Source of the DNA: a virus
Length of the DNA: 25,904 nt
Strand: one strand, 5' to 3'
IMG/VR virus record: IMGVR_UViG_3300034198_011852
Span: 1-25,904 of that record
The stretch's first letter is position 1. Each line of letters opens with the position of its first letter. Positions 2,335 through 25,904 of the stretch are shown in pieces. The position numbers and the translations under genes are program-made. The notes beneath the pieces were generated by a model. That model was not told the origin of the DNA. It saw nothing but the letters and a program-made list of their open reading frames with translations, and did no database searches.

Positions 2335-2637
2335 ATGGAACCTAAAAACCCGCAGATTAAACACAGCTACCAAGAAGACAAGCTAAGAGCTAGAATGGCC
2401 GATAGAGCCCTGGATGAGAGTGCCCGCGCTAACTACACTAATGGTATATTCAAGCCAGGTCTTATGGCGAAGAGTAACGAAAATGATCGTGAGTTAGGAA
2501 CTAGAAATATTCACAAGACTCCTGTAGCAGAACTAAAAGAACTGCACAATAAGTTCGGAATTGAAACCGAAGTCAGCGGCGACGCTCTTGCTAGGAAAAA
2601 AGCAGGCAAGCCAGGCAAGTATCACGAGAAGGCATAA
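2335..2637 (+). CDS. Small basic protein with VSGDAL C-terminal module
   Basis: A 100-aa, Lys/Asn/Arg-rich, probably largely disordered protein of unknown function. It shares two blocks with the 88-aa protein at 3368-3634: NDRELGTRN (about residues 49-57; NKSEMGTRE there) and the C-terminal VSGDALARKKAGKPGKY (about 80-96; VSGDALKRATSGQPAKF there). The two are diverged paralogues or carry the same tail module. There is no ribosome site before the ATG; the -10 box 6 nt upstream suggests leaderless translation. It is the first gene of the rightward cluster and is followed immediately (TAA then ATG) by the next gene. Confidence 0.75.
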   Translation: MEPKNPQIKHSYQEDKLRARMADRALDESARANYTNGIFKPGLMAKSNENDRELGTRNIHKTPVAELKELHNKFGIETEVSGDALARKKAGKPGKYHEKA

Positions 2638-3126
2638 ATGAGTAGGAACGACGCATTTGAAGAAGGGCAAGCTCAGCGAGCTGCTGACCCTACTAGTAGC
2701 TCCCCGCTTAATGACCCTCACTACCACCCAAAAAAAGCATCAGATGAGAAGTTCACAACTCACCTAATGATGGGCGACCACCCAAGCGGAGCCACCTCAG
2801 TCACTATGGAGGATATGTTCCCAAAAAGTGGTATGCAAACTATTCGTATGTATAAGGGTAAGCAGAATATTGGCATCCTTGATGTCTCAGGAAATAAAAT
2901 CCACCACATCGAAACTCAAGAAGATTCCAAACGTAAAGGAGTAGCAAAGACAATGTATCGTCTCGCTAACTTTGCAGCTGGCCGAGGTGGAGCCGAGGGT
3001 CCTGTATCTCACGGAGATATCCGCACCCCTTCTGGCGACTCCTGGGCTAAATCCGTAGGTGGAGAGTTACCTACAAGAATCCCTGCATTCGGTATCAACA
3101 GAAGTCTGTTAGAGCACCGTAAATAA
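2638..3126 (+). CDS. GNAT-like acetyltransferase-fold protein
   Basis: A 162-aa protein. Residues about 68-150 look like the core of a GNAT N-acetyltransferase: a strand pair (IGILDVSG, then KIHHIETQ), a K-R-K-G-V-A turn (98-103) in the position of the acetyl-CoA pyrophosphate loop, a helix (TMYRLANFAA), and a C-terminal GDSWAKSVGGELP segment. The loop is shorter than the classic Q/R-x-x-G-x-G/A motif, so activity is uncertain. The N-terminus MSRNDAFEEGQA matches the tag on the proteins at 3978-4166 and 4166-4351, and MEDMFPKSGM (57-66) matches LESMFDKAGV in the former. The start directly follows the previous stop and has a GAGAAGG ribosome site. The substrate is unknown. Confidence 0.65.
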   Translation: MSRNDAFEEGQAQRAADPTSSSPLNDPHYHPKKASDEKFTTHLMMGDHPSGATSVTMEDMFPKSGMQTIRMYKGKQNIGILDVSGNKIHHIETQEDSKRKGVAKTMYRLANFAAGRGGAEGPVSHGDIRTPSGDSWAKSVGGELPTRIPAFGINRSLLEHRK

Positions 3127-3368
3127 TGGCTGGCAGACTCCACGCTAGCAACAGCCTAACTAGCGAGTTCCACCAAGGCCGCGCACCAGAGCTACACGAC
3201 GTACTGGGTGTATTCACCAATAATAATGCCGTTTTAGGGCTTGATGTAATGGGTGCCCGAAGAATAAACGATCGTATGTTTACTGGGCCAAGGGGAGCTG
3301 TTGGAAGGTACAATGTATCTGTTAATGCGACCAACGTCGCTCAGACCCCTTACGGAAGTAGTCAATAA
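3126..3368 (+). CDS. Small protein of unknown function (80 aa)
   Basis: An 80-aa protein with no recognised domain. It is rich in Asn, Gly and Arg and has a moderately hydrophobic centre around residues 26-42, too short and polar to be a membrane segment. It starts within the stop of the upstream gene (TAATG overlap) and ends in another TAATG overlap, so translational coupling with both neighbours is likely. An overlapping leftward open frame has no ribosome site and is ignored. It may be a minor virion or regulatory protein, but there is no direct evidence. Confidence 0.65.
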   Translation: MAGRLHASNSLTSEFHQGRAPELHDVLGVFTNNNAVLGLDVMGARRINDRMFTGPRGAVGRYNVSVNATNVAQTPYGSSQ

Positions 3369-3634
3369 TGATTCCAAACGACCGCCAAATTTTTAAAAAG
3401 GCACAAGGCCACTTAACCCAGCAAGCCCTTGGGCCAGGTAAGACAGGCCGTACTTTTGAAACTCGTCTCGCTGCTGAGCGTGGGATTGAAAACAATAAGT
3501 CTGAGATGGGCACCCGCGAAGCCGCTAAGGGTAACAGAAAAGTCAAGGACGCCAAAGGACCAGTTAGCGGAGATGCTCTTAAGCGCGCTACTTCTGGACA
3601 GCCTGCTAAGTTTGACTACGGCCAGGAGAAATAA
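3368..3634 (+). CDS. Small basic protein with VSGDAL C-terminal module
   Basis: An 88-aa, Lys/Arg/Gly-rich, probably disordered protein. It carries the two blocks shared with the protein at 2335-2637: NKSEMGTRE (about 44-52) and VSGDALKRATSGQPAKF (about 67-83). The regions between the blocks are unrelated, so the blocks may be short interaction or cleavage signals rather than a folded domain. The start overlaps the previous stop (TAATG) and has GGAAG upstream. A 73-codon frame inside it in another register is a shadow. The function is unknown. Confidence 0.75.
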   Translation: MIPNDRQIFKKAQGHLTQQALGPGKTGRTFETRLAAERGIENNKSEMGTREAAKGNRKVKDAKGPVSGDALKRATSGQPAKFDYGQEK

Positions 3635-3636
3635 TT

Positions 3637-3978
3637 ATGACTGCTGCTAAGAAGCCAGCCCCTAAGAAAAAAGCCTCTACTCTCGCAGGTAGTGGCAAAG
3701 ACGGCAAGAAGGTTTACGGCCCATTCAAGGGCTCTAAGCAAAACGGCGGTCGTCCAATGATGTCTATTTTGAATAAAGATGGTTCACGTACTTCTATTTC
3801 CGCAGCTCGCTATAAGTATGAGCAAGCTCACGGAAAATTGCCAAAGGGCACAGAAGTGGACCACAAGAACAATAACCACTCTGATGACAAGACCAGCAAC
3901 CTACGCGCGCTTTCAAAGAGCAAGAATGTCGCTAAGGAAAACAAGCGTCGCGCAGGCAAAAAGGAAAACGACAAATAA
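3637..3978 (+). CDS. HNH endonuclease
   Basis: A 113-aa protein. Residues about 57-104 match the compact HNH nuclease fold found in many phage HNH proteins: a helix with YKYEQAHGKLPKG, then EVDHKNNNHSDD with the catalytic Asp-His (D75, H76) and Asn residues (78-80), then TSNLRALSKSKN with the structural Asn88 and the final helix with Asn97. The N-terminus (KKPAPKKKAS) is very basic and could bind DNA. There are no zinc-binding cysteines. The start has GGAG upstream; the stop overlaps the next start. Phage HNH enzymes act as homing nucleases or as packaging-associated nickases. Its place inside an operon of small genes, and 6 kb from terL, favours a free-standing or homing type, but this is not settled. 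Confidence 0.88.
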   Translation: MTAAKKPAPKKKASTLAGSGKDGKKVYGPFKGSKQNGGRPMMSILNKDGSRTSISAARYKYEQAHGKLPKGTEVDHKNNNHSDDKTSNLRALSKSKNVAKENKRRAGKKENDK

Positions 3979-4166
3979 TGTCTCGTAAAGAAGAGTTCGA
4001 ATCTGGCAAGTCTGGCGAAAAGTATACTAAGTTAGAAAGTATGTTTGACAAGGCCGGAGTTAGTATGGTTAAAGACCCATTTACTGGAACTACTCACGTA
4101 GACTTGTCTGACCCTAATCACCCTTTTTGGACGGGTAAGCCCGGAGACCACGAAAGCAAGAAGTAA
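3978..4166 (+). CDS. Small protein with MSRxEEFExGKS tag
   Basis: A 62-aa hydrophilic protein of unknown function. Its N-terminus MSRKEEFESGKS is nearly identical to that of the following gene (MSRREEFETGKS) and related to that of the GNAT-like protein (MSRNDAFEEGQA). It also has LESMFDKAGV (about 19-28), matching MEDMFPKSGM in the GNAT-like protein. The C-terminus DPNHPFWTGKPGDHESKK is probably unstructured. Start and stop both overlap neighbours as TAATG, and AAAGGA lies upstream. The repeated N-terminus suggests a common localisation or packaging signal; this is inference. Confidence 0.75.
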   Translation: MSRKEEFESGKSGEKYTKLESMFDKAGVSMVKDPFTGTTHVDLSDPNHPFWTGKPGDHESKK

Positions 4167-4351
4167 TGTCACGCAGAGAAGAGTTTGAGACTGGAAAGTC
4201 TAACCGTCCCGGTGAGGTTATCGGAGCCCCTAAATGGTGGCACCACCCGACCACTCCTGAGATGATTGATGAGATGAAGTGGGAGCAGGGCAAGTCCATT
4301 GAGGCGCCTAAAGACCACACCACTAATAAAGACGACACTCCTCCTTTTTAA
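4166..4351 (+). CDS. Small protein with MSRxEEFExGKS tag, last of cluster
   Basis: A 61-aa protein with the N-terminal tag MSRREEFETGKS. A weaker echo, WEQGKSIEAP, occurs near residues 39-48. The centre (APKWWHHPTTPEM) is rich in aromatic and His residues and the C-terminus is polar. The function is unknown. It starts in a TAATG overlap and is the last gene before a 105-bp gap without a clear terminator; that gap has a purine-rich ribosome site for the next gene and one 8-codon frame at 4404 that I do not call. Confidence 0.72.
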   Translation: MSRREEFETGKSNRPGEVIGAPKWWHHPTTPEMIDEMKWEQGKSIEAPKDHTTNKDDTPPF

Positions 4352-4456: not shown

Positions 4457-7387
4457 ATGGCTCTGAATACACTAGGAGACATCGCTGATAGCGGTACGCT
4501 TCTTATAGACACAACTGCGACTGTGAACGGCGCTACTAATGCTAGCACCAGCGTCACTATCTCAGCTACAAACACAAACTTATTCGTCGGTCAGGTAGTA
4601 ACTGGTCCTGGCGTACAGCAAGCTAACGGTATCGTAAGCCAAACCACAATTACCGCTATTAGCGTTTCTGGCTTGGTTCTTACCCTTAGCAACCCAGCTA
4701 CTTTTGTAAATGGCGCTGTTCTTACCTTCTCGTCTCCTTATGCTCAGGTTACAACTGCTGTCCTTAACGGTACAACCACCGCTAGCACTGCTGTAACACT
4801 TTCTGCCGCTAACGCCAATATCGTTGCTGGTCAGCTTGTTTCTGGTGCAGGTATCACAGCTGGCACTTTCGTTTCGTCGATCAGCTCGACTTCGCTAGTT
4901 CTAACTGCTCCGTTCACCATCACTTCTGGAACTACCCTTACATTCTGGACTCTTGCAAGCTCTAACGTATCAGTTGACCTAGCTTGGGGTAACTTCCCAA
5001 TGCAGCCAAATGATGACCGCGTTGCTGCTGGTGTAGCTAACATTGGTGGTGCTGGTGTTCAGTCAGCTTACGTCACTGGAGCTTCTAAACCATCTACTGG
5101 TACTATCTTGTTCACCACGAACGCTGTTCACGGTCTACAGGTTGGCGATGTTGTAAGCACTGGTTCATACGCAACTGCTGGTACACCATTTGGTAGCGCA
5201 CTTACTACCGTGTCTAACACAGCCGGTACAACTACCTTCATCTACACCAACAGTCCAACCGTTGTACCACAGGTCGGTATGGTTTTGGTTAAGACTGCTG
5301 GTACAGGCGCATTTGCCCCTAACGGTAACACTATCCTCACAGTTGACACCACAAACAAGACCTTCACAGTAGCCGTTGCTCCAACCACTGACTTCAGCGG
5401 TGCAACTGTTCAGTCTGCTGGTCAGCCTGTTTATTCGACAACTGCAACTATTAGCGGCGGTACTTTAGACGCAACTCTACTAACTAACAGCTGTACTACT
5501 GGTACTCACTTCATTGCACCTGGAAGCCCTGTTATCCTATCGAGCACAACCCCAGCAGGTTATGGCACTTCACCTAATGGCGCTTATACATCACTAGGCT
5601 CTGCAAGCAAGACTAACATCAAGCTATCTAGCCAGAGCGTGTCGTTCACCACGAACAACATTGGTTCAAAGGACGTAACAGTCTCGTCGCTTGCTGCTCT
5701 AACAGCTGGAACTGTTACTTACTACCCTTACGATGTTTCGGAAGTTAAGGTCATTGCTGTTCCTTCGACAACTACATTTGTTGTCGCAAGCAGCATTGGT
5801 TGGAGCGGTGACTCAACTGATACTGGTGTTGCAGCTCAGTCGAGCCTTGTAGGTTCGTTGGCTTTGGTTGCTGACCGCAACTGGTCTGACACCACTAAGT
5901 CGTCAAGCTCACGTCTAAACCAGGGCTCAGTAGTCAGCACTGTTAACGGTGTTAACTACGTTACCCCTACTGCTGACGGTATTGCAACTGCCTCGTACTA
6001 CACATACCCTAACCTAATCCCAGGAAAGTTCACTGTTACTGGTGCTACCGTCTGTGCTGACGCTGCAGGTACGCCAAACCTATACGTTTGGTACACCGCT
6101 TATAACAACCTTGCTGCAGGTAGCTCAGTTACTGTAACTGGTCTGTCTAACCCAGCGTTCAACGTTGTAGGTGCATCGGTCATCGCTGCTAGCACAACTG
6201 GCTTCTTGATCGCTAACCCTAGCACTACAGGTACAGTTTCTGGCGCAACTAGCGCTAGCTCTACTGTTACTTTGGCAGCTGCTAACGGCGCTATCAAAGT
6301 TGGTATGAACGTTACTGGAACTAACATCTCTGGAGTAGTAACTGTTGTTGCTGTAGTCAACACTGTTGTAACCCTAAGCTCGGCACAGTCATTGTCAAAC
6401 TCTGACACCCTGACATTCCGTATCGTCAATGGAACCACTATTGCAGGTAATGGAGTTGCAGCGCAGGCTAACTTTGGTGTAGGTAACGCTATTGTTACTG
6501 CAGTTTCGGGTAACGGTACAACTGTTACTTACACATCGCAGAACACCTTCGTTACTGGTGACTCGGTAAACATCACTGGACTAACCAATGGTGTTTTCAA
6601 CCTATCGGCTGCGACTGTTGCTAGCGCTAATGCTACAACTTTCACAGTAACTAGTGCCGTAGGTTCGGGTGTCTCGCTAACTGGCCAGGTTGGTAAGGCT
6701 GAGTATGCAGCTGCTTTGACTAACGTCGATGGCGGATTTGTAGCAGGCGTTTACTACCCACAGGTTCCAGTTATCATCGGACAGACGGTTGCAGCTGCTA
6801 CGGACTCAATCCGTGACCGCGGTTTCACAGGCTCGTTCACTGCTGCTACTCCTGCAATTACTTCGACAATCACTTTGTCAAAGGCACAGCGTACAGCTGG
6901 TACTAACGTTGCAATTTTGACAGGCACACAGGCAATCACTGACATCGTAGCTTCAGGCTCAGCTAACGCTGTGACTCGTGCTTCGGGTACTGCGATTGCT
7001 GCTGTGAAGGTTGGTCAGACAGTTGCTTCGACAACCATCACACCTGCTCGTAACATTACTGCTGTTAACTACTCGACAGGTGTTATCACCTTCGACGGTG
7101 CTGCAGTTGGTACAGTAACCTCTGAAACCCTAACAATTGGTGGTCACGGTCTACAAACTGGTGACGTAATCGTTATCTCCAGCACAGACGCTACCGTGAA
7201 CGGAGATGCGACAGTTATCAGAATTGACGCGTTGAACTTCGCAATCGTTACCCCTGTGACAACTGTCTTGGCTGCTACAAGCGGTTCTGTAGTTGGAAAG
7301 TCTGGAACGGTTCACTACCAGTCAGTTGCTGCTGGAACACAGAGCACAGCTGCTAACGCTGCACTAACATACACACTCTGGGCCTAA
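4457..7387 (+). CDS. Large beta-repeat virion protein (976 aa)
   Basis: A very Ser/Thr/Ala/Val/Gly-rich protein with almost no Lys/Arg clusters and no Cys-rich motif, built of beta-sandwich-like repeats. Type 1 repeats, with a GAT-AS-T-VT-L-A-N...VG--V-G-GI...T-V...LTLS...LTF pattern, lie at about 20-93, 99-164 and 592-656. Type 2 segments (GHGLQTGDVIVISS near 895; similar ones near 225, 555 and 695) resemble the G-H-x-L/F-x-x-G-D/Q units of phage fibre and surface proteins, including the 943-aa fibre at 20033. Near 177-187 there is a distinct WGNFPMQPNDD segment. It has a GAGAAAGG ribosome site and its own downstream terminator (7402-7431). Frequent TCG serine codons, shared with the capsid gene, suggest high expression. 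A decoration, head-fibre or tail-surface protein is likely; which one is unknown. Confidence 0.8.
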   Translation: MALNTLGDIADSGTLLIDTTATVNGATNASTSVTISATNTNLFVGQVVTGPGVQQANGIVSQTTITAISVSGLVLTLSNPATFVNGAVLTFSSPYAQVTTAVLNGTTTASTAVTLSAANANIVAGQLVSGAGITAGTFVSSISSTSLVLTAPFTITSGTTLTFWTLASSNVSVDLAWGNFPMQPNDDRVAAGVANIGGAGVQSAYVTGASKPSTGTILFTTNAVHGLQVGDVVSTGSYATAGTPFGSALTTVSNTAGTTTFIYTNSPTVVPQVGMVLVKTAGTGAFAPNGNTILTVDTTNKTFTVAVAPTTDFSGATVQSAGQPVYSTTATISGGTLDATLLTNSCTTGTHFIAPGSPVILSSTTPAGYGTSPNGAYTSLGSASKTNIKLSSQSVSFTTNNIGSKDVTVSSLAALTAGTVTYYPYDVSEVKVIAVPSTTTFVVASSIGWSGDSTDTGVAAQSSLVGSLALVADRNWSDTTKSSSSRLNQGSVVSTVNGVNYVTPTADGIATASYYTYPNLIPGKFTVTGATVCADAAGTPNLYVWYTAYNNLAAGSSVTVTGLSNPAFNVVGASVIAASTTGFLIANPSTTGTVSGATSASSTVTLAAANGAIKVGMNVTGTNISGVVTVVAVVNTVVTLSSAQSLSNSDTLTFRIVNGTTIAGNGVAAQANFGVGNAIVTAVSGNGTTVTYTSQNTFVTGDSVNITGLTNGVFNLSAATVASANATTFTVTSAVGSGVSLTGQVGKAEYAAALTNVDGGFVAGVYYPQVPVIIGQTVAAATDSIRDRGFTGSFTAATPAITSTITLSKAQRTAGTNVAILTGTQAITDIVASGSANAVTRASGTAIAAVKVGQTVASTTITPARNITAVNYSTGVITFDGAAVGTVTSETLTIGGHGLQTGDVIVISSTDATVNGDATVIRIDALNFAIVTPVTTVLAATSGSVVGKSGTVHYQSVAAGTQSTAANAALTYTLWA

Positions 7388-8127: not shown

Positions 8128-8330
8128 TGCCTAGCCTCAAAATAGATATACGCCGTAATGGCCCTCTAGCAAAGCGCTCAGGGGCCATTACCTCTACCGA
8201 CGTGTACGAACGCACTAATTACCCCGTAGCCCGCTCTAGCGAGTTTACAGACGCCCTTACGAGGGCTGTAGGTCCTACTGTCCCTGGAATACCCACTCAT
8301 ATGAAAGAGTGGGGAAGATGGCAGGGATAA
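8127..8330 (+). CDS. Small protein of unknown function (67 aa)
   Basis: A 67-aa basic protein beginning MPSLKIDIRRNGP and ending GIPTHMKEWGRWQG. No family is recognised. It starts in the stop of the upstream gene (TAATG), so it is probably translationally coupled. Its last 13 bases overlap the start of a further short gene at 8318. There are no membrane segments or cysteines. Proteins of this size and Pro/Arg/Trp style often accompany phage head genes, but there is no specific evidence. Confidence 0.65.
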   Translation: MPSLKIDIRRNGPLAKRSGAITSTDVYERTNYPVARSSEFTDALTRAVGPTVPGIPTHMKEWGRWQG

Positions 8331-8482
8331 AAAGAGAATCTGAGTTTAAAAAAGCATTATTTAAACCAGTACAGATAAATGATACACGATTTGGAATTCG
8401 TAGAATTTATCTGAATCAAAAGGAAAAGCCACAAACTTTTTCTTACTCCGAGCCTGGCACCAATTGGTGGGGCACCCGATAA
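8318..8482 (+). CDS. Very small basic protein (54 aa)
   Basis: An intact 55-codon frame from ATG at 8318 to TAA at 8482. It overlaps the end of the previous gene by 13 bases and fills the otherwise empty stretch before 8492. The product begins MAGIKRESEFKKAL and ends with SYSEPGTNWWGTR; it is basic, with a polar C-terminus rich in aromatics. Purine-rich GAAAGAG lies 8 nt upstream and GGGGA closer. Its frame joins both neighbours without a gap, and no other frame is open over this stretch, which supports it as a real gene. The function is unknown. Confidence 0.65.
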   Translation: MAGIKRESEFKKALFKPVQINDTRFGIRRIYLNQKEKPQTFSYSEPGTNWWGTR

Positions 8483-10161: not shown

Positions 10162-11736
10162 ATGAGCGATATTGATGACTTTGAAGAGCTAGATGAAAGC
10201 CTTGAAAGTGAGGTTGACGAGTACCCTGAAGACGACGATGGTTTAGACGAACTATCGCGTGAGTTTGTAAATCAGCTAATTGATAAAATTATGCTGTTCA
10301 TGACTGCTCTTGTGGGGCACGAACTGCGCGCCTACCAAAAACCCTTGGCTCGTCGTATTATCGAGTCTGTGGTAATCAACGAGGGTGAGGAAATCACAGC
10401 TTTGGCCTCGCGTCAGTCAGGTAAATCCGAGACTGTGGCGGACACTGTGGCCGCTCTAATGGTAATTTTACCGCGGCTTGCCAAAATGTATCCCGACCTG
10501 CTAGGAAGGTTCAAGGACGGCCTCTGGGTGGGTCTATTCGCCCCTGTAGAAGGCCAGGCTGAAACGTTGTTCTCTCGCGTTATAACTCGTCTTACCAGTG
10601 AGCACGCGTTGGCACTCCTTGAAGACCCAGAGATTGACGACGAGGCTAAAAAAGTAGCTGGCGTCACTAAGCAAGTAAAGCTTCTTAAGTCTAATTCCTC
10701 AGTAATGATGATGACCGCTAACCCTAGAGCCAAGATTGAGTCTAAAACCTTCCACCTTATTGTGATTGATGAGTGCCAGGAAGCCGACGACTTCATCGTG
10801 GCTAAGTCTATTGGCCCTATGCTCGCCTCTACCAACGGTACTATGGTAAAAACTGGTACGCCTACCACGCATAAGAACAACTTCTACAGGGCAATCCAAC
10901 TCAACAAACGCCGAGCTACTGGGCGTGGCGGCAAGCAGAACCACTTCCAGTGGGACTGGCGTGACGTTGCTAAGGCTAGCGATGACTACGGTAAGTTCGT
11001 GCGCAAGGAAATGTTGCGTATTGGTGAAGACTCTGATGAGTTCCAAATGGCCTATAACTGTAAGTGGCTACTTGAGCGCGGTATGTTTATATCTTCAACC
11101 ATTATGGATGAGCTAGGCGATACCTCTCAGGAAACAGTTAAAGCCTGGCACCGTACTCCAGTAATTGTGGGTATTGACCCTGCCCGTAAGATGGACTCTA
11201 CTGTAGTCACTGTAGTTTGGGTGGATTGGGATAGGCCTGATGAGTTTGGCTACTATGACCATCGCATTCTTAACTGGCTTGAGATTCAGAATGATGACTG
11301 GGAAGACCAGTATTTTCAGATTGTAAACTTCCTCGAGAACTACAACATCCTATATGTGGGTGTTGATGCTAATGGTGTCGGAGATGCTGTAGCCCAGCGT
11401 TTAAGGTTACTGTTGCCAAGAGCTGAGGTAATCTCAGTTAAAAGTAGCCAGCAAGAGCAGTCTAAGAGATGGAAGCACCTAAAGACTTTAATTGAACGCC
11501 GCTTAATTGGCTGGCCCGCACACGCTAGCACTAGAAGACTACGTGCGTGGAAACGTTTCTATCAGCAGATGACTGACCTTGAGGTTAAGTTCCAAGGCCC
11601 TAACTTCTTAGCGCACGCTCCAGTGGAAGCTCATGCTCACGATGACTTTGCCGATAGTTTGGCTATTGCTATTAGTTTGACCTTAGACCTAACGATGCCT
11701 TCTGTAGAAGTTAGTAGTTCTCCATTTTATCGTTAA
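10162..11736 (+). CDS. terL: Terminase large subunit
   Basis: The 524-aa DNA-packaging motor with ATPase and nuclease domains. Visible motifs: adenine/Q-type region LRAYQKPL (55-62), Walker A SRQSGKSE (83-90), Walker B LIVIDECQ (199-206) with catalytic Glu204, and coupling motif TGTPT (231-235). The RNase H-like nuclease has acidic residues in VGIDPARKMDST (D339), YVGVDANG (D402) and HAHDDFADS (D494, D495, D498). The acidic first 30 residues are an extension. The length is normal for the family. It would dock on the portal encoded at 12678 and cut concatemers. Ribosome site AAGGTG. A terminator lies just upstream and an AT-rich hairpin (11737-11774) just downstream. Confidence 0.97.
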   Translation: MSDIDDFEELDESLESEVDEYPEDDDGLDELSREFVNQLIDKIMLFMTALVGHELRAYQKPLARRIIESVVINEGEEITALASRQSGKSETVADTVAALMVILPRLAKMYPDLLGRFKDGLWVGLFAPVEGQAETLFSRVITRLTSEHALALLEDPEIDDEAKKVAGVTKQVKLLKSNSSVMMMTANPRAKIESKTFHLIVIDECQEADDFIVAKSIGPMLASTNGTMVKTGTPTTHKNNFYRAIQLNKRRATGRGGKQNHFQWDWRDVAKASDDYGKFVRKEMLRIGEDSDEFQMAYNCKWLLERGMFISSTIMDELGDTSQETVKAWHRTPVIVGIDPARKMDSTVVTVVWVDWDRPDEFGYYDHRILNWLEIQNDDWEDQYFQIVNFLENYNILYVGVDANGVGDAVAQRLRLLLPRAEVISVKSSQQEQSKRWKHLKTLIERRLIGWPAHASTRRLRAWKRFYQQMTDLEVKFQGPNFLAHAPVEAHAHDDFADSLAIAISLTLDLTMPSVEVSSSPFYR

Positions 11737-12677: not shown

Positions 12678-14390
12678 ATGTCGATTGATTTTTCCCCTCC
12701 TTCCTATAGAGCTGCATCATCCGACCTTACAATTTCCATTTCGCCTCTGGGTCTAGTAGAACTTGCAGACGAAGAGTTTGAAGTCCACGGCCCTCGCCTA
12801 AACCGTTACTCTCTTAACTGGGCTATGTACCTAGGCCACCACACTTCTTTTCGCCGCCAAGCTGGCGAGCCATCGGTAGTTCTAAATTATTACCGCGCAA
12901 TCACAGATTTTATTATTAACTTCACATTTAGCAAGGGCGTACAGTTCCGTAGCGTTAAAGCTACCGAAGCTATCATCCCTAGCCTTCTAGAGCGTGTCTG
13001 GGAAGTTGACAACAATAAAGCAACCGTTCTTTGGGAAATTGGCCAGCAAGGCTCTGTCTCTGGTGACTGCTTTATTAAGGTAGCTTACGAAGAAGGCTAT
13101 CAAGACCCTGCTGGTGGTATCCACCCAGGGCGAGTTCGTGTCCTACCTCTAAACTCCTCTTTTGCATTCCCTGAGTTTCACCCTCACGACCGCGAGCGCT
13201 TAATCCGTTTTAAGCTTAAGTACCGTTTCTGGGGTACCTCGCTAGAAGGAACTCGTCAGGTTTACACCTACACTGAGATTCTTACCGATGACCACATCGA
13301 AGAATACATCAATGATGAAATGATTGATTCACGCCCTAACCCATTGGGCGTTATTCCTATTGTCCACATTCCTAATGTGCGCGTATCTGGCTCTCCTTGG
13401 GGACTGGCTGACTGTAACGAAATCATCAGCATTAACCGTATTTACAATGAGACTGCCACAGACATCGCAGATATTATTAACTACCACGCAGCTCCTGTTA
13501 CCGTTATTATCGGTGCTAAGGCTAGTCAGCTAGAAAAGGGCGCTAACAAGGTATGGGGTGGCCTTCCTAAAGACGCTCGTGTAGAAAACCTTGAAGGTGG
13601 AGGCCAGGGTCTTAAGGGTGCTATGGACTTCATGGACCGCCTAAAGAAGGCAATGCACGAAATGACTGGTGTACCAGAGTCTGCTCTTGGTCAAGCTATG
13701 CCAGTATCTAACACTTCTGGTGTTGCTCTTAGCATTATGTTCCAGCCTTTGATGAACCGCTATCACCAGAAGATTGTGCAATACGCACACGGTCTTGAGC
13801 GAGTTAACTCCCTTGTACTTCGTACTTTAGCATTTAAAGAGCCAGAGACATTCACGCTTAACCCTGACACTGAAGCCACACCTAAGCCAGAGCAGTTGAC
13901 TCAGCTGGACCCTAATGACCCAGAGACTTACCGTACTTACTGTCACTTCCCACCACCGCTGCCTCTAGATAAGCTAATTGTGCTTAACGAGATTCAATCC
14001 TTGCTATCACTTGGCTTGCAGTCTAAAGAAGGCGCTTTGCGCGACCTTGGTGAGGAATTCCCAGAGTCTAAGCTCCAGGAAATCCGTAGAGAACTTATTG
14101 ATGATGCAGTAGCCGATGGCGCGCTACGCCTCATCCAGACTGAAATTGAACAAGAGATTATGACCATGACTGGTACTCTGCCTCCACAGGATGGCACAAG
14201 TGCTGGAGGCGGTGGCGCACCAGCTGGTGGAGCCCCTCAAGAAGTAGCTCCTGTTGCTGGTCCAACCCTTGATCCACAGACTATGGACAACCTTGCACTT
14301 GGCGAAACTGCACTTAGAACTCGCCTAGTCACAGAAGCTTACGGAACTCGCCTACCTCAAAGACAAATTCCGCAAGATTATCAAAAATAA
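12678..14390 (+). CDS. Portal protein (SPP1 gp6-like)
   Basis: The 570-aa head-tail portal subunit, expected to form the dodecameric ring at one capsid vertex. Support: length, order after terL and before scaffold/capsid, the N-terminal LNYYRAITDFIINFTFSKGVQF (wing/stem entry, about 69-90, in part), GSVSGDCFIKV (about 126-136), the NPLGVIPIVHIPN clip-like segment (about 221-233), and long C-terminal helices with MHEMTGVPESALGQA and SNTSGVALSIM (about 330-358), typical of gp6-type portals. The last 60 residues are Gly/Pro/Ala-rich and disordered. The ribosome site is weak (GGAAG, about 11 nt upstream); TGTAAT at 12637 might be a -10. It partners with TerL and the 353-aa connector. Confidence 0.93.
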   Translation: MSIDFSPPSYRAASSDLTISISPLGLVELADEEFEVHGPRLNRYSLNWAMYLGHHTSFRRQAGEPSVVLNYYRAITDFIINFTFSKGVQFRSVKATEAIIPSLLERVWEVDNNKATVLWEIGQQGSVSGDCFIKVAYEEGYQDPAGGIHPGRVRVLPLNSSFAFPEFHPHDRERLIRFKLKYRFWGTSLEGTRQVYTYTEILTDDHIEEYINDEMIDSRPNPLGVIPIVHIPNVRVSGSPWGLADCNEIISINRIYNETATDIADIINYHAAPVTVIIGAKASQLEKGANKVWGGLPKDARVENLEGGGQGLKGAMDFMDRLKKAMHEMTGVPESALGQAMPVSNTSGVALSIMFQPLMNRYHQKIVQYAHGLERVNSLVLRTLAFKEPETFTLNPDTEATPKPEQLTQLDPNDPETYRTYCHFPPPLPLDKLIVLNEIQSLLSLGLQSKEGALRDLGEEFPESKLQEIRRELIDDAVADGALRLIQTEIEQEIMTMTGTLPPQDGTSAGGGGAPAGGAPQEVAPVAGPTLDPQTMDNLALGETALRTRLVTEAYGTRLPQRQIPQDYQK

Positions 14391-15351: not shown

Positions 15352-16440
15352 ATGGCATCAGGTATTACGGGTACAGGTAATTTAGCCGCCGCCCCGACAT
15401 CGTACTCAGGTACAAACACCCAGCTTACTCAGGCGATTCAGCAGATTTGGTCAAAGGAAATCCTTTTCCAGGCCATGCCTATCCTTCGCTTTGAGCAATT
15501 CGCCGTTAAGAAGACAGAACTTGGTGTTGCACCAGGTCTTCAGATTAACTTCCTGCGTTACAACAACCTCGGCTTTGCTTCGGCACTTGTCGAAGGTGTT
15601 CGTATGCAGACTAACGCACTGACTGCACAGCAGTTCTCGATCACCGTTTCGGAGCACGGTTACGCACTTGCCGTATCAGAGCTTCTTCTTAACGCTTCGT
15701 TCGATGACGTAATGGCATCAGCTTCGCGTCTACTAGGTCGCAACATGGCCCTTTACCTAGACAAGCTTAGCCGCGACACCCTATACGGTGCCACTTCTAA
15801 GATTTATGGTGAAGACCGCACCAACATGACCGCGATCACCAACGGTACTGGTAACTTCAACCAGTACGGTTACGGTACTAACGGAACCAGCAACGCTGCG
15901 ATGACAGGTAACTTCCACCTGACTCCTCGTACCGTTAAGGACGCCGTTGAGAGCCTATCAACCAAGAACATCCCTCGTCTAGGCGAGACCTATGTTGCTT
16001 TCGTTCACCCTCACCAGAGCCGCCGTTTGCGCGACACCGCTGAGTTCATCGAAGTAACTAAGTACGCTGCTCCTGGTAACTTCATGCTTGGTGAAATCGG
16101 TCGCCTATACGACACCGTCTTCATCGAGACCACTCAGGTCCGCAAGGTCGGTGGCGGTGCTGGTACTGGTTGGACTACAGACACTGCAGTCGTTAACCCT
16201 ACCCCTGCTGCTGGTGGTGGCTACATTAGCCCAGACGAGTTCACAGGTAACGGTTCAGCTGACCGCTATGACGCCATCTTCATTGGTGACAACGCATTCG
16301 GTCACGCTATCTCGCTTCCAGTGGAGCTCCGCGATGGTGGTATCCTAGACTTCGGTCGTGAGCACGCCCTTGCATGGTACTCGATCTTCGGTCTTGGTCT
16401 AATCACTGACCAGGCAGTAATCGTAGCTTCAACCAACTAG
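15352..16440 (+). CDS. Major capsid protein (N4-gp56 family)
   Basis: The 362-aa shell protein with an HK97 fold. It looks like the N4-gp56 family: an N-terminal WSKEILFQAMPILRFEQFA segment (about 34-52), LVEGVRMQTNALTAQQFSI (about 83-101), an SEHGYALAVSELLLNASFDD strand/helix (about 103-122), the spine helix with ALYLDKLSRDTLYG (about 132-145), and YVAFVHPHQSRRLRDT followed by GEIGRLYDTVFIETT (about 215-260). The ribosome site is strong (TTAGGAG). The gene is flanked by its own terminator at 16449. Serine TCG and other codon choices match those of the 976-aa beta-repeat gene and point to high expression. The start at 15352 is well supported; there is no long N-terminal delta domain, which fits a separate scaffold. 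Confidence 0.95.
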   Translation: MASGITGTGNLAAAPTSYSGTNTQLTQAIQQIWSKEILFQAMPILRFEQFAVKKTELGVAPGLQINFLRYNNLGFASALVEGVRMQTNALTAQQFSITVSEHGYALAVSELLLNASFDDVMASASRLLGRNMALYLDKLSRDTLYGATSKIYGEDRTNMTAITNGTGNFNQYGYGTNGTSNAAMTGNFHLTPRTVKDAVESLSTKNIPRLGETYVAFVHPHQSRRLRDTAEFIEVTKYAAPGNFMLGEIGRLYDTVFIETTQVRKVGGGAGTGWTTDTAVVNPTPAAGGGYISPDEFTGNGSADRYDAIFIGDNAFGHAISLPVELRDGGILDFGREHALAWYSIFGLGLITDQAVIVASTN

Positions 16441-23666: not shown

Positions 23667-24557
23667 ATGAACAAAGGCGCTCTTCACGGGTTTGGTGTTC
23701 CCTTTCAAGAAATAAGCCTTCAACGCACAATAGTTACCACAGGTTATGTGGACATTCCGCCAGACGTCCCTATTGTATTTGCCGTTTTAGCTGGTGGCGG
23801 TGGAGCCGGTGGCGGTGCTGCGTCTAACGCTCAATCAGGTGGCGGTGGCGGTGGCGGTGCAGTTACTTCAGGTTGGGTTCCCGCTTCTAACTACGCAATT
23901 ATTGGTGCAGGTGGCGTAGGTGTACCCGCTAGCGCAGGCGGCTCAGGTGGAACAACCTACTACTCAACTTTATATGCCTCTGGTGGCGGAGGTGGCGGAG
24001 GGTCAAGCAGCACTTCTGGAGTAACTGGCGCTAATGGCTCAGGCGGCGGCGGCGGTTTTGCGGTTAACGGAACTAGCGGTACAGCTGGCGGTTCTTCTAC
24101 GCTTGTGTACCAAATAGGCGGAGCTGGTGGAGCTGGCTCTGGTGGTAGCGGCCCTGTAACGGGCGGTGCTGGAAGTCCAGGCTCTGCTGGAGGTGGCGGC
24201 GGCGCAGCTGGTACGTCTAACGGTGGAGCTGGTACTGCGGGTAAGGGCGGAAATGGTATAACTGGCGGTGGCGGTGGCGGGGCTGCTACACAGGCAGGTA
24301 CAGTAACTGTTACTAGCGGTAATGGCGGAAACGGCATTTACCCAGGCGGTACAGGTTCCTCTGCTTCTCTTGGTTCTTCTAGCGGTTTTAGCGGTGGTGG
24401 CGGTGGAGGTATTGTAGGACCAGGGGCGGCGGGAGATGTCTCTAACTCCAGCGGTCAAGGCGGAGTAGGTGGCGGCGGAGGCGGCGGAATAGGCTTTGTA
24501 AGCACTAACGTTGCTGGTGTTAATGGCGGTTCTGGCGCTGTATTGCTTTATTGGTAA
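23667..24557 (+). CDS. Glycine-rich adhesin, paralogue A
   Basis: A 296-aa protein. Residues 1-45 form a folded head: ISLQRTIVTTGYVDIPPDVP, then IVFAVLAGGGGAGGG. The rest is dominated by poly-Gly blocks (AGGGGGG, GGSGGS) interrupted by short variable loops such as VPASNYAIIGAGGVG and TTYYSTLYASGG. The end, NGGSGAVLLYW, is a conserved strand. The layout matches glycine-rich phage adhesin domains, in which polyglycine helices pack and the loops bind receptors. Two related genes follow (24570 and 25452). The coding sequence uses GGC/GGT runs, prone to slippage. It lies one base after the upstream stop. Confidence 0.85.
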   Translation: MNKGALHGFGVPFQEISLQRTIVTTGYVDIPPDVPIVFAVLAGGGGAGGGAASNAQSGGGGGGGAVTSGWVPASNYAIIGAGGVGVPASAGGSGGTTYYSTLYASGGGGGGGSSSTSGVTGANGSGGGGGFAVNGTSGTAGGSSTLVYQIGGAGGAGSGGSGPVTGGAGSPGSAGGGGGAAGTSNGGAGTAGKGGNGITGGGGGGAATQAGTVTVTSGNGGNGIYPGGTGSSASLGSSSGFSGGGGGGIVGPGAAGDVSNSSGQGGVGGGGGGGIGFVSTNVAGVNGGSGAVLLYW

Positions 24558-24569
24558 ACGGAGAAGTTT

Positions 24570-25445
24570 ATGAATAAAGGTACAGGAAAAAATCTTGGTA
24601 ATACGTTTTCTAAAATCGCATTACGCAGAGTGGTGTTGAGTACAGGTTACATAGACATCCCGCCTGAAATTAATTATGTTTACGCCGTTTTAGTTGGCGG
24701 CGGTGGGGCTGGTGGTGGTTGCCCTACTTTAGGCGCAGGCGGCGGTGGCGGAGCTGGTCAAGTAGTTGCAGCTTGGACTCCTGCAGTTAGATATGCTGTT
24801 ATTGGCAATGGCGGAGTTGGCGTAAATGGCGTAGGAAATGGAGGGTCTAATGGTGGTTACACTAAATATGGCGGCCTTTATGTTCCTCCTGGAGCTCCTG
24901 GAGCTGCCTCTAATGCAGCAAGCTCTAACAATACTTTTGGAGGTGCTGGCGGAGGTGGCGGAACTACAAGCTCAGCCGCCGTGCTTGGCGGCATAGCCAA
25001 CACTAACTTGTATCAGCTAGGAGGAGCTGGAGGAGCTGCTGCTTTTGGAGCAGTTTCCTCTTCTTCTTCAGGTAGCCCAGGGTCTGCTGGCGGTGGAGGA
25101 GGGGGCATGGTTACTAGCAATAATAATGCTGTAGCTGGTTCAGGGGGCAGAGGTACAGCAGGCGGTGGAGGAGGCGGAACTTTACTCTCTTCAGGTAGTG
25201 CGACAATATTTGGCGGGGCAGGTGGACGGGGCATTACTCAGGGTGGTGGCTCTCTTAGTGCCACGGGTTCTTTAGTTTTTGCTGGCGGGTCAGGCGGTGG
25301 AGGTTTTTACGGACCAGGTATGGCTGCTACCTCAGGAGTTGGCGGTGCTGGTGGAGTAGGCGGCGGCGGCGGCGGAGGTTCAGCTGGTCCAGCAGGTACG
25401 TTAGGCGGAAATGGAGGGCAGGGCATAGTCCTGCTATATTGGTGA
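24570..25445 (+). CDS. Glycine-rich adhesin, paralogue B
   Basis: A 291-aa protein with GGAG upstream. The head is IALRRVVLSTGYIDIPPEIN, then YVYAVLVGGGGAGGG, clearly related to A. The Gly-rich body has different loops (PAVRYAVIGNGGVGVNGVGN; YTKYGGLYVPPGAPGAA; NTNLYQLGGAGGAAAFGAVS). The end NGGQGIVLLYW matches the A end. Common head and tail with divergent loops fit gene duplication followed by loop diversification for receptor range. No reverse transcriptase or template repeat is present to suggest a diversity-generating retroelement. Confidence 0.85.
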   Translation: MNKGTGKNLGNTFSKIALRRVVLSTGYIDIPPEINYVYAVLVGGGGAGGGCPTLGAGGGGGAGQVVAAWTPAVRYAVIGNGGVGVNGVGNGGSNGGYTKYGGLYVPPGAPGAASNAASSNNTFGGAGGGGGTTSSAAVLGGIANTNLYQLGGAGGAAAFGAVSSSSSGSPGSAGGGGGGMVTSNNNAVAGSGGRGTAGGGGGGTLLSSGSATIFGGAGGRGITQGGGSLSATGSLVFAGGSGGGGFYGPGMAATSGVGGAGGVGGGGGGGSAGPAGTLGGNGGQGIVLLYW

Positions 25446-25451
25446 TAAATT

Positions 25452-25904
25452 ATGTTATCTAAAAAGAAATTTGGCGTCGTCCCTAAAGGACTGAGTCTTC
25501 GTAGAACTGTAACTACCACAGGATTTGTAGAAATCCCGGAAGACATAAGCGTGGTCTTTGCCGTGATAGCTGGCGGTGGAGGTTCTGGCGGTAGCGGTGC
25601 GATTACTACCGCTTCTGGCGGCGGTGGCGGCGGCGGCGTAACTTACGGTTGGGTCCTTGCCTCTAGCTACGCAACTATTGGAGCGGGTGGCGCATCTGCT
25701 ACTGCCGCTGTCGGTAATGAAGGGGGAACAACTTATTATTCAAGCTTGTACGCAAATGGTGGGTATGGTGGGTCTAACGCTTCAGCGGTAGGAAAACCAG
25801 CGTCATTTAGTAACGGTGGTGGTGGTGGCGGTGGCGGAGCTACTGGAAGCCCTTCTTTAATCGCTCAGGGAAATCCAAGTGCTTTGGTGCAAAACGGTAG
25901 CGGA
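25452..25904 (+). CDS. Glycine-rich adhesin, paralogue C (partial)
   Basis: An open frame from ATG at 25452 to the window end (151 codons, no stop), so the 3' part is missing. The head GLSLRRTVTTTGFVEIPEDI, then SVVFAVIAGGGGSGGS, aligns with A and B. The loops WVLASSYATIGAGG and GGTTYYSSLYANGG match those of A more closely (WVPASNYAIIGAGG; GGTTYYSTLYASGG). The start has no strong ribosome site and lies 6 nt after the B stop, so it is probably translated by coupling. It is the third member of the tandem set. Confidence 0.85.
   Translation, partial: MLSKKKFGVVPKGLSLRRTVTTTGFVEIPEDISVVFAVIAGGGGSGGSGAITTASGGGGGGGVTYGWVLASSYATIGAGGASATAAVGNEGGTTYYSSLYANGGYGGSNASAVGKPASFSNGGGGGGGGATGSPSLIAQGNPSALVQNGSG

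Follow-up and report, generated by a model that had tools for sequence, protein, structure and literature searches.

A shared N-terminal peptide on unrelated small phage proteins

Why would small phage proteins with unrelated bodies begin with the same few residues? The question is raised by a 25.9-kb phage fragment, i.e., an entire IMG/VR record of 25,904 bases (hereafter the window), for which a first-pass annotation had proposed that three small genes encode a common leader on distinct cargo, acting as a sorting signal, e.g., for packing into the capsid, or as a site recognized by one partner. The nearest cultured relatives of this phage are distant ones, the Streptomyces phage BRock group, which have contractile tails (Table 1). 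The window portal has at least 599 relatives in IMG/VR and the group is thus abundant; we take its members to be freshwater phages of Actinobacteria, going by BRock and by what is generally known of such collections. A search with the terminase as query yielded no member of the family in GTDB genomes, so that the host assignment derives from BRock only.

Minus-strand genes stop near 1.9 kb in the window, after which seven small genes run rightward up to a repeat-rich protein that probably sits on the virion surface; no terminator-like hairpin was found between the last small gene and the repeat protein. Three of the seven, the ATG-initiated ORFs at 2638, 3978, and 4166 with 1-base overlaps or adjoining ends, do carry the tag, with the common pattern MSRxxxFExG ahead of unrelated bodies. 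A strict degenerate DNA pattern for the tag peptide matched only these three starts in the window and was found in 0/100 dinucleotide-preserving shuffles. The products of 3978 and 4166 matched each other with a BLASTP E-value of 1e-5, confined to residues 1–13, and the tags of 2638 and 3978 with a pairwise E-value of 0.016, while the second motif reported for the latter pair, [ML]E[DS]MFxK[SA]G, is present but weak (E = 0.004). Tag codons differ among the three genes (S = AGT/TCT/TCA, R = AGG/CGT/CGC, G = GGG/GGC/GGA), which argues against a recent DNA duplication.

The annotation had overlooked a second leader, frequent in relatives, on the proteins at 2335 and 3368, so that the window phage holds three copies of the class II tag and two of a class Ic (xPKxxQF-type) leader. 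These two proteins also share a C-terminal VSGDALxRxxxGxPxK with each other and with proteins of four relatives (L005, L006, L014, and L015) that are otherwise different, possibly a second module. The HNH_3 gene passes its Pfam cut-off (43.6 vs. 24.8 bits) and is about 69–81% identical in relatives. Among known families, none matched the protein at 3978 above cut-off; its HPFWTGKPG stretch is similar to a portion of ribosomal protein L31, at a score below the PF01197 cut-off (E = 0.0044).

Two further small proteins have tag-like stretches. The family of the 3126–3368 protein is conserved around a core, GMFSGPRPSYQRY, upstream of which lies a tag-like SEFHQGRA or LSNVQFRN; as a source of the tag this motif was suggestive, not consistent, and was set aside. 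A conserved small protein upstream of the terminase (window 8309–8482; L086:7822, L098:7079, L116:7093, and L095:7856) starts with a class II-like M[SNK]RxxxFxxA in relatives, and might be a native binder that the tag imitates. At the other end of the window (23667–25904), three tandem glycine-rich paralogues have the common N-terminus RRTVxTTGYVDIPPxxxxVFAVLAGGGGAGG.

Table 1 Cassette and structural genes of the window.
Feature	Coordinates	Strand	Remarks
100-aa protein	2335..2637	+	class Ic leader MEPKNPQI; C-terminal VSGDALAR..GKPGK
162-aa GNAT-type acetyltransferase	2638..3126	+	class II tag MSRNDAFEEGQA at 2638-2673
80-aa protein	3126..3368	+	conserved in phage family; Met 1 without leader; internal TSEFHQGRAP motif
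88-aa protein	3368..3634	+	class Ic leader MIPNDRQI; C-terminal VSGDALKR..GQPAK
HNH_3 endonuclease, untagged	3637..3978	+	conserved beside cassette; PF13392 E=2.3e-11
62-aa protein	3978..4166	+	class II tag MSRKEEFESGKS at 3978-4013
61-aa protein	4166..4351	+	class II tag MSRREEFETGKS at 4166-4201
976-aa repeat-rich protein	4457..7387	+	directly downstream of cassette
Terminase large subunit	10162..11736	+	phrog_2 E=1.8e-34; 54% identical to BRock
Portal protein	12678..14390	+	phrog_64 E=4.9e-37
Major capsid protein	15352..16440	+	phrog_1357 E=2.5e-62; up to 70% identical to BRock-group phages

Related phages use different leader dialects

Next, we evaluated the leaders across relatives, i.e., metagenomic fragments with our own simple gene calls, gathered with HNH, portal, or GNAT baits and thus biased to phages carrying these genes. 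The strict form of the pattern is almost absent beyond the cluster, the single match in IMG/VR being a terminase (L004) that we rejected as a chance look-alike, while a wider form, MS[RK]xxEFxxG, and apparent equivalents are common. The annotation had named confinement of the pattern to the three-gene cluster as grounds for refuting its proposal, and the outcome favors the proposal instead. Tagged small-gene runs open the rightward operon; they share the strand of the terminase-portal-capsid genes, into which they lead, and have divergent minus-strand genes adjoining. At the cassette position, relatives hold a different set of small genes, most often with the leader M[EKNI]PKxxQ[FLM]. Leader types, defined by hand-made patterns, include NL[SN]xxQF, [DE]xGxQF, xPKxxQF, RNNADF, and MSRxxEFxxG, and exceeded the counts in residue shuffles 10- to 80-fold (99 observed vs. 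8.0, 19 vs. 0.5, 23 vs. 1.2, 8 vs. 0.1, and 11 vs. 0.5). Overall, 160 tagged proteins fell into 79 body families, with about 10 matches expected by chance. A motif-free test on 574 mutually non-homologous small proteins gave 36 N-terminal pairs with a BLOSUM score ≥25, compared to 3–5 pairs at internal control offsets. Tags mostly end at residues 7–12, and conservation is near zero past the core F; since this F belonged to the search pattern, only the drop that follows it is informative. An additional leader class, [PD]DRxxDPxRR, was seen on unrelated small proteins (9 vs. 0.4 in shuffles; L176:10723, L176:10974, L172:6875, L192:5814, and L101:4096). In an incomplete search of the literature, we found no published description of such shared leaders.

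Leaders were mostly uniform within a phage: 411 of 544 leader pairs within contigs were of the same class, whereas permuted labels averaged 241 such pairs and never gave more than 299, a uniformity due in part to relatedness and near-identical contigs. Among three genomes of the same portal and capsid family as the window (G002, G004, and G005), G005 has nine tagged genes in 5 kb, mostly with MDxGxQF, and G002 about ten DNLSxxQF-type leaders plus one MSRKDNFEAAH. Leaders at other loci read MSNLNPQQF, MAAHENLSNLQF, MGRNNADFHG, and MSRxxEFEASHIAARE. A proteasome/HslV-like protein is encoded near tagged genes in two relatives (G002:C1:56467-57015; L221:7591); PF00227 is over cut-off with its neighbors in the frame.

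Leaders are exchanged as units and conserved as peptides

More than one leader class was found in 5 of the 79 body families. One series involves the small gene that directly precedes the repeat protein and whose body is kept while its leader differs between phages: the body of window 4166 (aPEW..TPE.MDE...PPF) is common to four relatives, and at the same place as MSRREEFETGKS in the window stand MRPHTSQFDEND in L006, MKSDKGQFDEIG in L005, MKPNVPQVSKH in L015, and MSRVEHFNGE in L094. We conclude from the constancy of the body under different leaders that the leader is swapped as a unit. At shared tag residues, the same codon is used in 45.6% of cases vs. 41.5% expected from codon usage, i.e., codon choice is near random, which points to selection on the peptide. 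Taken together, the relatives strongly support the proposal of a common leader, distinct cargo, and a site for one partner: the leader is modular, exchanged, kept as peptide rather than DNA, and mostly uniform per phage. We are far more confident that the tag exists, is modular, and functions as a peptide than that it serves in capsid loading, to which we return below.

Tagged cargo includes candidate host-modifying enzymes

The protein at 2638 had been described as GNAT-like. On its own, it reached only E = 0.055 against the Pfam GNAT family, below cut-off, but its homologues exceed the PF00583 threshold (29.0 and 23.9 bits vs. 20.7), its family profile matches solved GNATs, and its acetyl-CoA loop, K-R-K-G-V-A, fits R/Q-x-x-G-x-[GA]. 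An AF2 model (pLDDT 79) has a folded domain at about residues 38–150, for which Foldseek gave a probability of 1.0 with ribosomal-protein and aminoglycoside acetyltransferases, though with E > 0.01, and the fold agrees with the label; the tag forms a low-confidence helix (residues 3–15) outside this domain. The GNAT family that includes window 2638 comes with four leader types and led us to further phages. A single-protein search returned two loci only, and a search with the GNAT motif written as a DNA pattern was successful.

In relatives, the cargo includes GNATs, ParB-like domains, and an Arr-like match (E = 0.004, below cut-off). One cargo family, present in relatives and not in the window, has an R-S-E ADP-ribosyltransferase signature, with invariant R14-G15, G27, H29, E102, and E104, the motif HW[ST] in 11 of 12 members and HFT in the other, and a conserved ExE. 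The top structural matches of its model were all ADP-ribosyltransferases, but with Z ≤ 7.5 and Foldseek E > 0.1; we regard this family as probable ADP-ribosyltransferases. PDB profile searches with two ADP-ribosyltransferase families returned nothing, and neither the ADP-ribosyltransferase cargo nor a 70-aa class II cargo had a match among cultured phages. Some of the tagged enzymes probably act on the host.

Comparable domains are known from other phages. Bixzunavirus mycobacteriophages have the same domain types (ParB-like, GNAT, and R-S-E ADP-ribosyltransferase) in a variable array just upstream of the portal. In contrast to the single tagged genes described here, Tonenili gp97 (L241:5428-7683) and Dandelion gp89 (L242:6398-8716) fuse their domains, named here from motifs except for the annotated ParB-like domain of Dandelion, in one polyprotein. 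Repeated [RHQ]TA[GAS] / HEGARIxAAE spacers that resemble processing sites divide these domains. VIP2-like ADP-ribosyltransferases have been reported from freshwater phages, for some of which actinobacterial hosts were predicted, and were interpreted as anti-grazer toxins, with N-terminal features unmentioned (PMC6802176). Unlike in that report, ADP-ribosyltransferases are one cargo among many here, suggesting that they play a part in the bacterial host.

Capsid loading as a tentative function of the leaders

What could a short exchangeable N-terminal peptide be for? Our leading, still tentative, interpretation is that the leaders are capsid-loading tags, a reading based on gene neighborhood, cargo types, and analogy with phage T4. 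We infer late expression, a partner, head loading, and injection as follows: N-terminal address tags of about 7–12 residues would mark fast-changing small proteins, probably host-directed, in a tag dialect of each phage's own; a partner that the phage encodes and makes late, most likely a component of the scaffold, capsid, or portal, would bind the tag and pull the cargo into the assembling head; and upon the next infection the cargo would leave the head together with the DNA. Such a capsid-targeting logic would explain why unrelated host-directed cargo with fast turnover comes with a constant peptide and stands ahead of the structural genes.

In T4, the internal proteins and Alt carry an N-terminal capsid-targeting sequence (CTS), and many are ejected into the host (PMC9026906, PMC3012670); 10 N-terminal residues of IPIII are enough for head loading, and Alt is a packaged ADP-ribosyltransferase (PMC9026906). 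Across T-even phages, internal proteins are diverse and the targeting sequence alone is conserved (PMC3012670). The leaders resemble the CTSs of IPI, IPII, IPIII, and Alt in being short N-terminal peptides, of about 10 residues and within the first 10–19 residues in T4 and mostly ending at residues 7–12 here, on diverse bodies, and in having cargo that varies strongly among related phages and includes an ADP-ribosyltransferase. They differ in that the tag sequences are unlike those of T4 and come in several dialects. T4 CTSs are removed by the prohead protease gp21 (S77) at [LI]xE sites. Here, by contrast, such sites were not enriched after the tags, PF03420 was absent from four relatives (G002, G004, G005, and G008, all fragments; T4 positive control E = 4e-113), and searches of full or partial relatives yielded no prohead protease of the S77, S78, or ClpP type (no PF04586 or PF00574), an absence that is not complete because the records are fragments. 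Hence, a T4-type processed tag is unsupported, and with neither cleavage motif nor protease found, we consider the leaders CTS-like in working but outside the CTS family. Besides these negative results, two observations count against capsid loading: several dialects in one phage would require more than one binding mode, and no tagged cassette was seen between the tRNA cluster and the terminase of BRock (Borockvirus), the nearest cultured relative.

As the chief alternative, the leader would be a docking peptide whose partner resides in the infected cell, e.g., a phage hub protein or a host machine (RNA polymerase, ribosome, or protease), with the cargo acting where it is made. GNATs and ADP-ribosyltransferases could modify host targets directly, and the coexistence of several leader classes would fit such docking, which we nonetheless judge rather unlikely: the cassette run leads into structural genes, and dialects differ within one portal and capsid family, when one would expect a host partner to keep the tag more constant. 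We know of no strong reason for co-producing host-modifying proteins with late genes. An anchor to the particle exterior or to the tail or fiber apparatus, e.g., to the neighboring repeat protein, for decoration or tail-borne cargo, appears improbable: the lack of a terminator-like hairpin before the repeat protein and their proximity in close relatives speak for it, but repeat protein and cassette are sometimes apart, and acetyltransferase and ADP-ribosyltransferase domains require intracellular substrates. Ancient tandem duplicates, with bodies diverged past recognition and the N-terminus kept as a functional core, could account for the further shared motifs, i.e., the SGDALAR C-termini and the weak MFxKxG match. 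This origin is less probable again and mostly refuted by leader exchange, in which the same fold or an orthologous body has different leaders; moreover, the bodies are of different folds (GNAT, ParB-like, and ADP-ribosyltransferase).

The two weakest readings concern the nature of the likeness itself. In one, the leader is an element of the DNA or RNA that happens to be translated, e.g., a recombination site or a translation-start element; the packing of the genes with 1–4-base overlaps, which constrains start regions, would agree with this, but we reject a nucleotide signal as very improbable, in the main refuted by the near-random codon agreement and by the three codons each for S, R, and G in the window. 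Chance likeness of short peptides, with which the near absence of the strict pattern elsewhere in IMG/VR would agree, is refuted to the point of being negligible by the shuffles of the window and the enrichment across relatives.

Implications

Returning to capsid loading, we see as a possible, somewhat more tentative picture a large uncultivated freshwater phage group, probably infecting Actinobacteria, with a modular N-terminal loading code, phage-specific dialects, no T4-type protease, and exchangeable injected effectors, including acetyltransferases, ADP-ribosyltransferases, and ParB-like proteins. If the tags load virions, they would provide a sequence-only listing of injected effectors in abundant uncultivated phages, most of them without a recognizable domain, and the dialects offer a handle for locating the tag reader through co-variation. 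The capsid-targeting trick of T4 would then have a protease-free counterpart that arose in, or spread to, phages beyond the T4-like ones, and the ADP-ribosyltransferases of freshwater phages would be possible tools for takeover of the bacterium rather than anti-grazer toxins.
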